A stretch of DNA of 64,000 nt from Clostridiaceae bacterium (lineage in GTDB: Bacteria > Bacillota > Clostridia > Peptostreptococcales > Peptostreptococcaceae). Position numbers and translations under genes: made by a program. Numbering within the stretch: the stretch's first letter is position 1; each line of letters starts with the position of its first letter. Positions 31,989 to 46,609 of this stretch are shown here, in pieces. The notes beneath the pieces are model-generated. The model was not told where the DNA came from. It saw only the letters and a program-made list of their open reading frames with translations, and ran no database searches. The DNA lies in the NCBI GenBank assembly GCA_902362365.1, contig CABIVQ010000003.1:40898-104897 (forward strand), read 5' to 3'.

Positions 31989-33140
31989 TTATCTTCTTCT
32001 TATTATCATTCTTAAATCACTTACTGATTCTTTTAGTGTTTTTACAACTTCTACCATTTCATTTTCTGTATTTAAGTCTGATAAACTAAATCTTATTGCA
32101 CCCTCTATTTCATTCGCCGTAAGCCCTATTGCATTTAATACATGGCTTCCTTTTTTCTTAGATGAACATGCAGAACCAGTTGATACATATATTCCTTTTT
32201 GCTCTAAGTAATGAAGTAATACTTCTCCTCTTATATATTTAAATGAAATATTTAATATGTGGCAAACACCATCTTCTGGTGAATTTATTTTTATGTCATC
32301 TATATTTTTTACTATTTCTTCTTTTAATAGATTCTTTAATTTCGCAATTTTTTCTATAGTTTGGTTTAGGTCCTCATTTAGTATTTTCACCGCTTCACCT
32401 AATCCATATATACCAGGCACATTTTCTGTACCTGATCTTACTCCTATTTCTTGACCTCCACCTGTAAGTATAGGCTTTAATCTGTTATTTTCCTTTATAT
32501 ACATGAATCCTATTCCTTTCGGACCATGTAACTTATGTCCACTAACACTCATAAAGTCTATATTATATCTTGAAGGCTTGAAGTTTATCTTAGCATATGA
32601 TTGCACTGCATCTACATGGAAGTATACTTTATCCTTTAGAGTCTTTAGGTACTTTCCTATTTCTTCTATCGGCTGTATAGTTCCTATTTCATTATTTACA
32701 TGCATTATAGTTATTAAACTTGTACTTGGCTTTATAGAATTTTTTAATTCTTCTATATTTATTTTACCTTCTTTATCAACTTTTAAATATGTAACTTCAA
32801 ATCCATCATCTTCTAAATCCTTTAAAGTATTTAAAACTGATGGGTGTTCTATTTCAGTTGATATTATATGGTTCTTTCTTTTTTTATATAAATTAGAAAC
32901 TCCTCTTATTATAGCGTTATTAGATTCCGTTCCACCTGATGTGAAGTATATTTCTTTATCCTTTACACCTATTGTTCTTGCGATATCTTGTCTTATTGCT
33001 TTTATATTTTTTTCTACTTCTATACCTTTTCTATGTAATGAAGAAGGATTTGCATAATCAGTAGTAAGGGCATAAACCATTTTATCTACAACTTCTTGAT
33101 ACGGTTTAGTTGTAGCACTGTTATCTAAATATATTTCCAT
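31989..33140 (-). CDS. cysteine desulfurase (IscS/NifS family, ThiI partner)
   Basis: A PLP enzyme that releases sulfur from cysteine as a persulfide. The 383-residue protein has the PLP lysine in SVSGHKLHGPKGIGF, the substrate/PLP loop TSGGTESNNA and the persulfide Cys in STGSACSSKKKGSHVL, a long flexible loop of the IscS/NifS type. Directly upstream of thiI, it corresponds to the dedicated desulfurase (NifZ/YrvO-like) that feeds tRNA thiolation. The ribosome site is weak (GGTG 8-9 nt before ATG). A general role in Fe-S assembly cannot be excluded. Confidence 0.92.
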   Translation of the reverse strand: MEIYLDNSATTKPYQEVVDKMVYALTTDYANPSSLHRKGIEVEKNIKAIRQDIARTIGVKDKEIYFTSGGTESNNAIIRGVSNLYKKRKNHIISTEIEHPSVLNTLKDLEDDGFEVTYLKVDKEGKINIEELKNSIKPSTSLITIMHVNNEIGTIQPIEEIGKYLKTLKDKVYFHVDAVQSYAKINFKPSRYNIDFMSVSGHKLHGPKGIGFMYIKENNRLKPILTGGGQEIGVRSGTENVPGIYGLGEAVKILNEDLNQTIEKIAKLKNLLKEEIVKNIDDIKINSPEDGVCHILNISFKYIRGEVLLHYLEQKGIYVSTGSACSSKKKGSHVLNAIGLTANEIEGAIRFSLSDLNTENEMVEVVKTLKESVSDLRMIIRRR

Positions 33141-33334: not shown

Positions 33335-33341
33335 TGTCGAA
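33335..33341 (+). promoter_or_regulatory. Spo0A-box-like motif upstream of the small-RNA units
   Basis: TGTCGAA in the context CTTTGTCGAAAAC matches the 0A-box consensus TGNCGAA. It lies about 70 bp upstream of the predicted start of the first small-RNA unit. Confidence 0.45.
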
Positions 33342-33370
33342 AACTTTTTTAACTTATTTTTGTAAAACTA

Positions 33371-33523
33371 TTGCTTTTGTTGTCGAAGATTGTTATTATT
33401 AATACATGGTTATCCCCCTGATAACCTTAGTAAAATCTCTATTCCCAATACCCCTTTTAAATGAATACTTTTATATTCATTTGACACCTACTTCTGATCG
33501 GAAAATGAAGTAGGTATTTTTTT
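33371..33523 (+). ncRNA. candidate small RNA 1 (tandem unit, C-rich, Spo0A-box in promoter)
   Basis: Promoter TTGCTT (33371-33376), 17 nt, TATTAT (33394-33399), with the 0A-box-like TGTCGAA (33381-33387) inside the spacer. The predicted RNA (about 33406-33523) starts with the hairpin GGTTATC-CCCCT-GATAACC (33408-33426), then carries single-stranded CCCAATACCCC, a second hairpin AAATGAATA/TATTCATTT (33459-33482) and a terminator ACCTACTTC/GAAGTAGGT with seven T. No coding frame is credible. It is duplicated 229 bp downstream. Such C-rich loops are typical of small RNAs that pair with ribosome-binding sites. Confidence 0.65.
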
Positions 33524-33599
33524 GCATTTTTTACAAATATTTATTATGTATATATTTAACATAGATTTAATAAAAAAATATATTTTTTTTGAAAAACTA

Positions 33600-33777
33600 T
33601 TGATTTTTTTGTCGAAGATTGTTATTATTAATACATGGTTATCCCCCTGATAACCTTAATTAAAATCTCTATTCCCAATACCCCTTTTGAACGGATATAC
33701 TTTATATCCATTAGTTTAAGGTGATAACGGAAATCAACTTAAACAGAAAAAAAGAGCTTCCCCAGCTCTTTTTTTTT
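33600..33777 (+). ncRNA. candidate small RNA 2 (paralogue of unit 1)
   Basis: Promoter TTGATT (33600-33605), 17 nt, TATTAT (33623-33628), again with TGTCGAA (33610-33616) in the spacer. The predicted RNA (about 33635-33777) shares about 75 nt with unit 1, including the 5' hairpin (33637-33655) and both C-rich stretches. The second hairpin keeps its position but has different sequence (GGATATA/TATATCC, 33693-33709). A third hairpin GTTTAAG/CTTAAAC (33714-33744) is unique, and the terminator AAAGAGCT-TCCCC-AGCTCTTT is unrelated. Different 3' parts on a conserved 5' part suggest selection on structure. Confidence 0.65.
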
Positions 33778-33901
33778 ATTTATTTTTACAATTAAAGGAA
33801 CTTTTTTATTTTTTAAGATGATAGATTAGTTTTATTGTTTTTGTTATAATTTATATTTAGTAGTAAAAATATTAATTTAGTAAATAAAGAGGTGGAATAT
33901 T

Positions 33902-34897
33902 ATGACTAATAAGAAGAAAGTTGCTATAGTTTTCACTGGTGGAACTATATCTATGACAGTTGACGAAAAAGTTGGAGCCGCAATACCTACTTTATCTGGG
34001 GAACAAATAATGTCTATGGTGACTAATATTGATAAAGTTGCCGATGTTGAAGTTTTAAATTTCGATGAAATTCCAGGACCTCATATGACACCTGAAAGAA
34101 TGATGGAATTAAAGCATTATGTAAATAATTTATTAAAAAGAGAAGATATATGCGGTGTTGTAATTACACATGGTACTGACAGTTTAGAAGAAACTGCTTA
34201 TTTCTTAGATTTAACTATAGATAATGAAAAACCTGTAATAGTTACAGGCGCTATGAGAAGTAGCTCTGAACTTGGATACGATGGACCAAGTAACTTATCT
34301 GGTGCAGTTTGTACAGCTATCTCAGATAGCGCTCGTGGAAAAGGAGTTCTTATTGTATTAAACAATGAAGTCATAGCAGCTTCTGAAGCTACAAAAACAG
34401 ATACACTAGCTTTAAATACTTTCCAATCTGTAACAGGAGGACCTTTAGGTGTAATAGATTGTAATGAACTTCTTTTATACAAACACATAGCTAAAAGAAC
34501 AATCATTGATACAGATACTGTAGAACCTAATGTAGCATTATTTAAAGCAGCAGTAGGAATGGATGAAACTTTTATAAAACTAGCTGTAGATAATGGATAT
34601 AAAGGTATTGTAATAGAAGCAATGGGTAGAGGTAATATACCTCCCAGAATGTATGAAGGTGTAAAATATGCTAGGGAAAATAACATACCAGTAGTAATAG
34701 TTTCAAGATGCCACTCAGGTAGAGTTTTCGATAGTTACGGATACTTAGGCTCAGGAAGAGACTTAAGGAATCTAGGATGCATCTTTGGAGGAGACCTGCC
34801 AGGTCATAAAGCTAGACTAAAGTTAATCCTTGCACTTGGAAAGACAAATAGTTTAAATGAAATAAAAGATTATTTCGAAGAAGGAATTTACTACTAA
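33902..34897 (+). CDS. ansA: L-asparaginase, type I (cytoplasmic)
   Basis: The enzyme hydrolyses asparagine to aspartate and ammonia. The 331-residue protein has no signal peptide and carries both catalytic motifs: Thr15 in FTGGTISM and THGTDSLEE near residue 90, with the downstream Lys in TGAMRSSSELGYDG region. Length matches AnsA-type enzymes. AGAGGTGG precedes the ATG. It is a single gene, just downstream of the small-RNA units and separated from them by the second terminator. Confidence 0.9.
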   Translation: MTNKKKVAIVFTGGTISMTVDEKVGAAIPTLSGEQIMSMVTNIDKVADVEVLNFDEIPGPHMTPERMMELKHYVNNLLKREDICGVVITHGTDSLEETAYFLDLTIDNEKPVIVTGAMRSSSELGYDGPSNLSGAVCTAISDSARGKGVLIVLNNEVIAASEATKTDTLALNTFQSVTGGPLGVIDCNELLLYKHIAKRTIIDTDTVEPNVALFKAAVGMDETFIKLAVDNGYKGIVIEAMGRGNIPPRMYEGVKYARENNIPVVIVSRCHSGRVFDSYGYLGSGRDLRNLGCIFGGDLPGHKARLKLILALGKTNSLNEIKDYFEEGIYY

Positions 34898-44210: not shown

Positions 44211-44440
44211 AAAAAAGTCTCTTAGTCATAAAGACTAAGAGACGAATTATATCCGCGTTACCACTCTTTTTGATAAGTATTACTTATCCTCTCAATCCCT
44301 TAAGGCAGGTATACCAATTATCATACTCTAGTTCTGATAATCTCCTCCAAAGCTCTCTTCACACTAAACTTCAATACTAGGCTCACACCATATCCTAGTT
44401 CGCTGAAAATCCATTTAAGTTACTCTCTTTTTCTCAGGAT
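44211..44440 (-). ncRNA. T-box riboswitch leader of the amino-acid transporter
   Basis: On the minus strand the leader begins with AGAAAAAGAGAGTAAC and the Stem I distal part CAGCGAACTAGGATATGGTG with a closing CCTAGT. It continues with a Stem III-like hairpin, then the T-box sequence AGAGTGGTAACGCGG, and a terminator GTCTCTTAGTC/GACTAAGAGAC with six T. The specifier loop is near GTGAAGAGAGC; GAG, AGA or AGC could be the codon, so I do not name the tRNA. Uncharged tRNA should allow read-through. Confidence 0.88.
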
Positions 44441-44569
44441 TTTTTAATTTAAAATTGTTAATACAATTATAGTGTTGTATATAATAAGTGTCAATTTTAT
44501 TTTAATATTTATATGTATTTTTATTTTTTTATGAACTAAAAATATTTTAAGCCATGCTCATTGTCTATA

Positions 44570-46609
44570 TTATACGTGTATTACATTATTTAAAATACAT
44601 ACTCTATAATTTAAAATTCTAGTTCCATCAGAAAACTTAACCCTTATAGAATCACCATCTTTTGCAACTATAGTTCCTCCTTTAAACCTTTTATGATATA
44701 TTGTATCTCCTATAGATATACTATCCATTTCTTCTTTAGTAGGAGCCTTTATATCATCTATGAAAGTAGAAACAGACACCTTTCTTCCATATTTATTTTG
44801 AGGCGAACTTATGCATAGATTATCTTCAGCTCTTGTTATTGCCACATACATAAGTCTTCTTTCTTCTTCAATCTGCTCATCTTTTTTACTATCATCATCT
44901 AAGTCATAAGATTTTTCATGAGGTATAGTTCCTTCATTTACACCTATTATATATACATTTTTAAACTCTAATCCCTTAGCACTATGCATTGTTGTAAATA
45001 TTACACCATCGCCTTGGTCTTTATTTTTATTTCCTACTACCTCTGACTTTACTCTATCTATATGATCTAAATATTCTTTTATAGTCTTGAAGTTTGTTGC
45101 AGAACTTTCTAATTCATTTAAAATCTCAATTAGACCATTGGACTTAATTTTCCTATTTGAACAATAATCTAGTATATACATATCATATTCTAAGCTTGTT
45201 CTAATATAAGAAATAGCATTTTGAGGATTTAAAGTTTTTAAATAACTTAAATCTATATCTAGGTCATTTATAGTTTTTACTTGTTTTGGATGTAGATTAC
45301 ACTTTGTTATTAAAGCGTTAATAAAGTCTTTTTCATCCTTAATACTATTAATACTATCTCTAGATATGTATCTAAATGGTTTATTTATAATCCTTACCCA
45401 ATCTTTACTTAAACTTGAATCAAGTCCTAACCTCAAATATGCGAGTATATCTTGAGCTGCCCAGTGATCATATATAGTTACTATAGAGTCCTTAACTACA
45501 AAAGGAATTCTCATATCCATAAAAACATCAACTAATGCTCTTGATTGTATATTCGTTCTATATATAACTGCAAAATCACTATATTCTACAAAATCTTTTT
45601 TTATTTCTTCTAAAATTTCTTTACCTATAAGTACTGCTTCTTCTTCGGAATCCTTTGGAGCTATATAACTAATATTTCCACCATTTCCTTGGCTACATTT
45701 AATTACCTTTTCATATCTATTAGAATTCTTTTCAATTAATCTATTTGCAACATCTATGATTTCACCCTTAGATCTATAATTTATATCTAGCATAACTTTT
45801 TTAGTTCCTGAAAAGTATTCTTCAAATTCTAATAAAAAGTCTGGTCTCGCCCCTCTAAATCCATATATACTCTGATCTTCATCTCCAACTACAAAAATAT
45901 TATTTTGAGGGTTTGAAATTAATTTTAAAACTTCAAATTGCACCTTATTTATATCTTGAAACTCATCTACTAGAATATATCTATATACACTCCTTACAGT
46001 CTCTAATGCTTTAGAATTATTTTTTAGTAAATAATAAGTTCTAAGTAACATATCATCAAAATCGATTTTTTTAATTTGATGCTTATGCTCTTCATATAAG
46101 TTGTATGCTTTTATAAATTCATCTTTACTTACTACCTCTGAATTAAAATCTCCTTTATCCATTAATTCATTTTTCACAAAAGAAATTTCATTGATAAGCT
46201 GTCCCACAACTTCATCATCTTCACCATTTTCAACATTTAAGCTTTTTAAAATCCCCTTTATAGCTAATCTTTTAGATTTTTCATCTAAAATACTATCTAG
46301 ATTATATTTTTCAAAATGCCTTAGTATTCTAAAGAAAACTGAATGAAATGTTCCATATGTAACCTTATTAATTCTAGGATCTTGGCTTAATGAAATTGCC
46401 CTATTTTTCATTTCCGTAGAAGATGCTTTTGTAAAGCTTATTGCAAGTATGCTTGTTGGCCTTGTATTATGATTTACAACCATATTTGCAATCCTATAAG
46501 TTATAACCCTTGTCTTTCCTGATCCAGGTCCTGCTAGAACCATACAAGGACCATCTATATGATTTATTGCATCTTTCTGATTTTTATTTAATCTATCTAT
46601 ATTTATCAT
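44570..46609 (-). CDS. UvrD/PcrA-like superfamily I DNA helicase
   Basis: An ATP-driven 3'-5' DNA helicase. The 679-residue protein has the SF1A motifs: Q motif LNKNQKDAI, Walker A AGPGSGKTR, IDFDDML, VDEFQDINK, GDEDQSIYGFRGA, MHSAKGLEFKNV and RLMYVAITRAED. The last 50 residues form a small beta domain (GDTIYHKRFKGGTIVAKDGD), as in PcrA tails. ATG 46609 lies 5 nt behind AAGGTGG. It is shorter than typical PcrA (about 720-750), so it may be a second, paralogous helicase rather than the housekeeping PcrA. Confidence 0.9.
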   Translation of the reverse strand: MINIDRLNKNQKDAINHIDGPCMVLAGPGSGKTRVITYRIANMVVNHNTRPTSILAISFTKASSTEMKNRAISLSQDPRINKVTYGTFHSVFFRILRHFEKYNLDSILDEKSKRLAIKGILKSLNVENGEDDEVVGQLINEISFVKNELMDKGDFNSEVVSKDEFIKAYNLYEEHKHQIKKIDFDDMLLRTYYLLKNNSKALETVRSVYRYILVDEFQDINKVQFEVLKLISNPQNNIFVVGDEDQSIYGFRGARPDFLLEFEEYFSGTKKVMLDINYRSKGEIIDVANRLIEKNSNRYEKVIKCSQGNGGNISYIAPKDSEEEAVLIGKEILEEIKKDFVEYSDFAVIYRTNIQSRALVDVFMDMRIPFVVKDSIVTIYDHWAAQDILAYLRLGLDSSLSKDWVRIINKPFRYISRDSINSIKDEKDFINALITKCNLHPKQVKTINDLDIDLSYLKTLNPQNAISYIRTSLEYDMYILDYCSNRKIKSNGLIEILNELESSATNFKTIKEYLDHIDRVKSEVVGNKNKDQGDGVIFTTMHSAKGLEFKNVYIIGVNEGTIPHEKSYDLDDDSKKDEQIEEERRLMYVAITRAEDNLCISSPQNKYGRKVSVSTFIDDIKAPTKEEMDSISIGDTIYHKRFKGGTIVAKDGDSIRVKFSDGTRILNYRVCILNNVIHV

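Follow-up and report, generated by a model that had tools for sequence, protein, structure and literature searches.

Tandem C-rich RNA units with putative Spo0A boxes in their promoters belong to a widespread clostridial RNA family

The 64,000-nucleotide stretch of a Clostridiaceae bacterium genome analysed here (the window) carries two tandem units that are almost certainly RNA genes. They belong to an RNA family that is widespread in clostridia and apparently unnamed, and whose promoters carry a putative Spo0A box that mostly tracks the presence of spo0A. Taken as a whole, the reading we favour, with confidence somewhat above even, is that the units encode trans-acting sRNAs that would be repressed by Spo0A and would block GGGGG-type ribosome sites, plausibly including the site of spo0A itself.

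Results

Two tandem units in the window

An earlier note on this DNA, made from the letters alone, proposed two tandem paralogous RNA units about 229 bp apart, and direct repeats bear this out: an 82-nt block (33354-33435 vs 33583-33664, 93% identity, spacing 229) overlaps a 37-nt block (33431-33467 vs 33661-33697, 92% identity, spacing 230). Together the blocks span 33354-33467 and 33583-33697, and the shared segment, which the note put at about 75 nt, comes to about 114 nt with the promoter included. The TATTAT hexamers, the TGTCGAA between -35 and -10 and the 5' hairpin with a C-run loop followed by CCCAATACCCC are all present as described (Table 1), the promoter hexamers lying 17 bp apart in both units with TGTCGAA within the spacer. 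Both predicted RNAs follow the order C-run-loop hairpin, unpaired CCCAATACCCC, hairpin 2, and then one further hairpin in unit 1 and two in unit 2. No shuffle out of 200 folds as well as either unit (z-scores in Table 1). The covariance model R1 (see below) matches unit 1 at 33405-33466 with 84.2 bits (1.2e-22; the window sequence is among the 59 training sequences of R1) and unit 2 at 33634-33696 with 85.4 bits (5.2e-23).

TGTCGAA occurs in the window only at 33335, 33381 and 33610, the first being the third, upstream copy that had also been noticed, and this copy recurs in G079, the closest genome read (86% identity over 2785 nt). Three occurrences are ordinary, since 33 of 100 shuffles of the window reach that count, and it is therefore the position of the box, not its number, that matters. 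Elsewhere in the window, Rfam matches over the cut-off fall at 44797-44896 and 44235-44444, both on the minus strand (n00280 and a T-box leader); the Rfam description gives n00280 as a C. difficile sRNA inside a helicase gene.

Table 1. Positions of the two RNA units, their predicted elements and the neighbouring genes in the window
Feature	Position	Strand	Basis
Aminotransferase class V gene (cysteine-desulfurase-like), divergent neighbour	31989..33140	-	PF00266
Third, upstream TGTCGAA box	33335..33341	+	Exact match; likewise 5' of unit 1 in G079
Unit 1 sigma-A-like promoter	33371..33399	+	TTGCTT 33371-33376, 17 bp, TATTAT 33394-33399; layout recurs in relatives
Unit 1 putative Spo0A box TGTCGAA, in spacer	33381..33387	+	Exact match, comparison with relatives; contacted bases as given in the accessible part of PMC3485338
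Unit 1 RNA, predicted including both ends, about 118 nt	33406..33523	+	R1 match, fold z -5.10
Unit 1 hairpin 1, C-run loop	33408..33426	+	Fold
Unit 1 unpaired CCCAATACCCC	33444..33454	+	Fold, alignment
Unit 1 hairpin 2	33457..33484	+	Fold
Unit 1 terminator: hairpin 33486-33515 with CGGA in loop, then T-run	33486..33523	+	Fold
Unit 2 sigma-A-like promoter	33600..33628	+	TTGATT 33600-33605, 17 bp, TATTAT 33623-33628 (sequence)
Unit 2 putative Spo0A box TGTCGAA, in spacer	33610..33616	+	Exact match, promoter comparison
Unit 2 RNA, predicted including both ends, about 142 nt	33635..33776	+	R1 match, fold z -5.58
Unit 2 hairpin 1, C-run loop	33637..33655	+	Fold
Unit 2 unpaired CCCAATACCCC	33674..33684	+	Centroid structure, alignment
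Unit 2 hairpin 2	33693..33709	+	Fold, pair counts
Unit 2 hairpin 3, CGGA in loop	33714..33744	+	Covariation in 28 and in 36 sequences
Unit 2 terminator, C-rich loop	33746..33776	+	Fold
Asparaginase gene, downstream neighbour	33902..34897	+	PF00710, PF17763

The RNA family in clostridia

Scanning genome contigs for the exact pattern TATCCCCCTNNTAN{15,35}CCCAATACCCC returned at least 118 clostridial loci. Titles among the matches listed include Tissierella, Anaerosalibacter, Romboutsia, Paraclostridium, Alkaliphilus, Tepidibacter and Family XIII, with many MAGs. The same pattern gave no match in viral contigs or in phage records, and we rejected carriage by viruses or phages on this basis. The loci listed and the window together supplied 124 cores, corresponding to 59 distinct sequences of 59 to 65 nt, and R1 was built on these; in their alignment 32 of 65 columns are invariant, 22 because the pattern imposes them and 10 independently of it. 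R1 matches all 30 genomes holding pattern loci, as expected by construction, and 60 of the 71 genomes of the Romboutsia-like family. Under stricter filters it also matches 5 of 398 genomes sampled across the phylum, clearly in G001 and G386; the three weak matches (6e-5 to 6.5e-4) come without a promoter and look like chance. Duplication of the units is likewise seen in relatives, with tandem copies at most 300 nt apart in 16 of the 71 Romboutsia-like family genomes.

Eight genomes of this family (G033-G040, 3.9 to 4.8 Mb), which we take for the C. difficile group partly from gene order, carry a divergent copy scoring 53 bits. In the two C. difficile-like copies examined, the RNA adjoins the same aminotransferase class V gene as in the window, and an ABC transporter ATPase gene lies convergent to it (Pfam for L161). 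R1 matches outside the training set, with divergent copies at 42 to 63 bits, rule out a chance origin together with the fold z-scores and the covariation described below. The Rfam search proposed in the earlier note yielded no family over the gathering score at the window units, nor at the L161 copy. We recognised no publication describing the family in the literature searched, where none combines an sRNA with a 0A box; to judge from the accessible part of PMC3649979, the C. difficile copy may be listed in the supplements of earlier sRNA work.

In G079 there is also a third paralog, which is C-rich and carries the same box in its promoter spacer. As a separate observation, a second class of C-rich RNA is seen at G079:C1:697272-697349 (minus strand) and at L160, L179, L364 and L365; it has the hairpin TTATTCCCC or a similar one, extra C-runs and a unit 1-like terminator, and most copies read have TGTCGAA in the promoter spacer.

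Conserved RNA structure

Covariation was scored on 28 of the 36 unit-2-type RNAs; L166, L167, L170-L173, L177 and L180 were omitted, of which L166, L170, L171, L173 and L177 have an altered hairpin 3 region. The window-derived structure pairs 96.8% of cells in these sequences, against 89.2% in shuffled and at most 44.4% in slid versions, a comparison biased toward the unslid version by the derivation of the structure from one of the 28 sequences. The covariation score lies above all 500 shuffles, and all 12 pairs of hairpin 3 have two-sided changes. Given no structure and all 36 sequences, RNAalifold recovered hairpins 1, 2 and 3 and did not predict the terminator; its seven predicted pairs in hairpin 3 had all changed on both sides, each being broken in 2 to 7 sequences. 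The selection on structure that the earlier note suspected, and the covariance and hairpin conservation in relatives that it named as checks, are therefore seen, most clearly in hairpin 3.

Hairpin 1 is nearly invariant among the 36 sequences and gives little information. Across the 59 cores its outer pairs partly change together, one pair is unpaired in 42 of 59, and the changed-pair count shows no excess over shuffles. Hairpin 2 keeps its position between the units, as had been noted, but its sequence is homologous rather than unrelated, with stem changes that compensate. Nor are the two terminator regions unrelated, as had been thought: the terminator hairpin of unit 1 and hairpin 3 of unit 2 occupy the same position and both have CGGA loops (33495-33506 and 33726-33732, respectively), and the unit 1 terminator also resembles that of the third paralog in G079. 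A pattern demanding the terminator stem of unit 1 finds 15 distinct unit 1-type sequences, the window included, and these occur in 14 of the 16 genomes that carry tandem copies.

The CGGA loops suggested CsrA as a candidate partner. CGGA is found in the hairpin 3 region of 29 of the 36 unit-2-type RNAs and is missing in 7. A csrA gene was not found in G079, G073-G075, G043-G046 or G058-G060, and the copies read from G079, G073-G075, G043, G044, G046 and G058-G060 retain CGGA. We rejected CsrA because the loops persist in genomes without detected csrA, and the seven RNAs that have no CGGA point the same way.

A coding function for the units is scarcely credible. The earlier remark that no coding frame explains the units needs a correction, as each predicted 5' end opens an ATG frame, of about 35 codons in one unit and 29 in the other. 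Linker lengths, however, differ by amounts not divisible by three, cores ranging from 59 to 65 nt, and the ATG is missing in many family members, so that coding is unlikely and short peptides were rejected as products for want of a frame conserved across the family. In unit 1 the ATG is the predicted start of the RNA, and other family members do not preserve this leaderless frame.

Position of the Spo0A box and co-occurrence with spo0A

Within the box, Spo0A contacts bases G2, C4 and G5, as described in the accessible part of PMC3485338. We used the 120 promoters, of 124 cores, with 75 nt upstream; the linker splits them into 53 ATT promoters, two of which are the window's, and 67 AAT promoters. 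Among the matches listed, 52 of the 53 ATT promoters have TGTCG at -29 to -31 from the loop, and 20 of 53 have the exact TGTCGAA. The TGTCG core retains the three contacted bases, and both window units have the exact box. The sole ATT promoter without TGTCG, L029, comes from a Soehngenia MAG with no spo0A over the cut-off.

Counted per genome (112 genomes, with the window and L094 left out), the ATT branch has the core in 39/39 genomes with spo0A vs 6/7 without among the matches listed, a trend at p 0.15 with kinship uncorrected, and the exact heptamer is not associated with spo0A (13/39 vs 2/7, p 1.0). The six spo0A-negative genomes that keep the core comprise five MAGs and a draft isolate, which makes their absence of spo0A uncertain, as it is for the Soehngenia MAG. 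In the AAT branch, where both strands were considered over 75 nt, 11/25 genomes with spo0A vs 0/41 without have an exact box among the matches listed (Fisher 4e-6, kinship uncorrected), which leaves 14 of the 25 genomes with spo0A devoid of an exact box.

Promoters were read in 48 of the 60 Romboutsia-like family genomes with an R1 match, and the core is present in 40/43 with spo0A vs 2/5 without (Fisher 0.01, kinship uncorrected). The two spo0A-negative genomes that keep it are one draft and one 1-Mb assembly; the three with neither are G058, G059 and G060. For G059 and G060, the missing box was seen first, and the absence of spo0A was then predicted and found. Three family genomes with spo0A have no core, two of them having TGTCC. 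Four promoters of G079 have a box in the spacer, an unexceptional number next to a mean of 2.2 in 10 random sequences; three of the four belong to the RNA family and the paralog. The fourth, the sole other in 2.4 Mb, lies at G079:C1 near 321840 (minus strand), 5' of a frame that looks transporter-like by eye.

The link to Spo0A that the earlier note drew has good comparative support, in that the box is position-locked and mostly tracks spo0A, and we consider the putative box very probably functional. Repression is the probable outcome, because the box sits between -35 and -10. Activation by Spo0A instead is improbable. In the AAT branch the position of the box varies, and six promoters (L011, L053, L057, L090, L100 and L109) have an exact box at -50, directly 5' of the -35, a place compatible with activation; five of these six have a degenerate ATC-A-AA-like second site near -30, about 20 bp downstream. 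In the ATT branch, however, the box lies between the hexamers of a good sigma-A promoter, a protein bound there should block polymerase, and the box-less promoters of genomes without spo0A retain recognisable sigma-A hexamers.

Genomic neighbourhood

Conservation of the gene downstream raises the alternative that the units are a cis-acting leader or attenuator. Among 119 loci listed, 105 have a downstream ORF, and within each branch this gene is conserved, being asparaginase-like at 41 loci and RNase_H_2-type at 47 (RNase_H_2 Pfam from one member). The downstream genes nevertheless differ between the two branches, the next gene is convergent in both C. difficile-like copies read, and the two window units each come with a promoter and a terminator of their own. 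A -10-like TGTTATAAT seen by eye at 33842-33851, 5' of the asparaginase gene, suggests that this gene has its own promoter as well. For these reasons we read the conservation as inherited neighbourhood and regard control in cis as very improbable, a small read-through effect being possible.

Predicted pairing with ribosome sites

In G079, pairing was predicted over 2.4 Mb (77%) and 2149 predicted genes, with starts assigned by a simple rule. A G-run of at least 5 lies within 22 nt of the start in 310 of these genes, and the best predicted partners of the loop are AGGGGGAU-type sites. For the loop the spo0A gene ranks 245 of 2149, and for the single-stranded module its rank is 728; spo0A as the single best target is unsupported in this genome. 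Ranked by pairing with the loop of its own genome, spo0A lies in the top 0.1 to 9.5% relative to a pooled background of 901 genes, and does so in 28 of 28 genomes, with the strongest predicted pairing in Geosporobacter, Anaerosalibacter, Anaerosolibacter and Anaerophilus.

The ribosome site of spo0A has GGGGG in all 30 relatives, 29 of them without a GGAGG-like motif (in G041 and G047, counted here, the RNA is matched only weakly or by a paralog). In 40 distant genomes from the phylum sample, one of which, G476, has a weak R1 match, 11 have GGGGG, 6 have GGGGG without a GGAGG-like motif and 31 have a GGAGG-like motif. Median spo0A-loop pairing is -15.2 in relatives vs -11.0 in distant genomes, and anti-Shine-Dalgarno pairing is alike (-11.2 and -11.4). 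The two sets differ in GC content (25% vs 34%) and kinship is uncorrected, and the contrast between them is suggestive only. We think it fairly likely that the RNA acts by blocking GGGGG-type ribosome sites, and the chances that spo0A is among the predicted targets appear evenly balanced. Many genomes without detected spo0A keep the RNA; spo0A is therefore not its sole target, and other targets must exist.

These observations also bear on another possibility, namely that the C-rich RNAs are controlled by Spo0A but serve central metabolism as a counterpart of RoxS/RsaE, the G-run at spo0A being incidental and no feedback existing. The modest rank of spo0A in G079 and the retention of the RNA in spo0A-less genomes are in its favour, as are several top-ranked loop partners in G079 that, from their first residues, are presumably metabolic. 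GGGGG at spo0A in 30/30 relatives against 56/901 background genes (from fetched loci), however, speaks against it, and we regard this alternative as unlikely, though the most serious of those weighed here.

Discussion

RsaE runs from a C-rich loop through a C-rich single strand to a terminator, an order similar to that of the RNA family described here. Like this family, RsaE/RoxS (RF01820) is a small RNA of Firmicutes in which C-rich stretches stay unpaired, and our units, by their folds and duplex predictions, have such stretches that could pair with ribosome sites. We rejected membership in RsaE/RoxS, as no RF01820 match exceeds the cut-off: the model scores 19.8 bits on unit 2 vs a gathering score of 79 bits, and in five genomes it gave only below-cut-off matches, none listed at family loci. 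LhrC of Listeria, as described in the accessible part of PMC4132741, is a multicopy sRNA and in this resembles the tandem units; it belongs to another genus and has a promoter controlled by LisRK, and we compared it by description only.

A precedent for blocking the spo0A ribosome site is SpoY (nc020), for which we draw on the accessible part of PMC10267692. SpoY is an Hfq-associated C. difficile sRNA derived from a 5'UTR, with a start shared with a coding gene; it prefers G-rich ribosome-site motifs, inhibits spo0A translation and peaks in early growth (PMC10267692). In our family the corresponding pairing is predicted. The same article reports nine further spo0A chimeras, of which eight involve sRNAs; a SpoY-like profile was seen for eight of the nine (PMC10267692). 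The family is unlikely to be SpoY itself, judged by the position of the pairing region rather than by SpoY sequence: spo0A protects SpoY nucleotides 30-41 (PMC10267692), which would fall in the A/U-rich linker of the C. difficile-like copy. In addition, that part of the article discusses no Spo0A box for SpoY, whereas the RNA family has a putative one.

The abrB, sigH and spo0A promoters have a TGTCGAA core with the contacted G2, C4 and G5, as the window units do, and the Spo0A-box targets described in the accessible part of PMC3485338 are regions 5' of protein genes, whereas here the box lies in putative sRNA promoters. On the features that mark the Spo0A regulon, both units have a promoter 0A box with the three contacted bases, and the box co-occurs with spo0A across the genomes compared, the ATT branch by itself giving only a trend (p 0.15).

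A mechanism consistent with these data is that the units are tandem paralogs within a clostridial family of trans-acting sRNAs belonging to the Spo0A regulon. During growth, the sigma-A promoter would transcribe the RNA, and at commitment to sporulation, phosphorylated Spo0A bound to TGTCGAA between -35 and -10 would switch the promoter off. While present, the RNA would expose C-rich modules, namely the hairpin loop, the single-stranded CCCAATACCCC and, in unit 2, the terminator loop, which may base-pair with Shine-Dalgarno sites of the GGGGG type and so keep a set of genes from being translated. If spo0A belongs to this set, a double-negative loop would result, giving sharper entry into sporulation. 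The earlier note missed how widespread the family is, its C-rich pairing modules and this possible feedback on spo0A.

More broadly, and tentatively, since we hold it somewhat less probable than its opposite, the family may represent a conserved switch in several clostridial groups, in which Spo0A represses the RNAs and the RNAs repress spo0A through its GGGGG site. The gate would have been duplicated in the Romboutsia-like lineage, and several spo0A-less lineages would have lost the box and kept the RNA for other targets. In the part of PMC10267692 available to us, sRNAs acting on spo0A are proposed to replace in part the Bacillus phosphorelay in the clostridial sporulation decision. An RNA family with putative Spo0A boxes and without an Rfam model, its C. 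difficile-like copy included, would be a concrete candidate for a feedback element in this decision, and the lineages that have lost spo0A offer a natural experiment on it.
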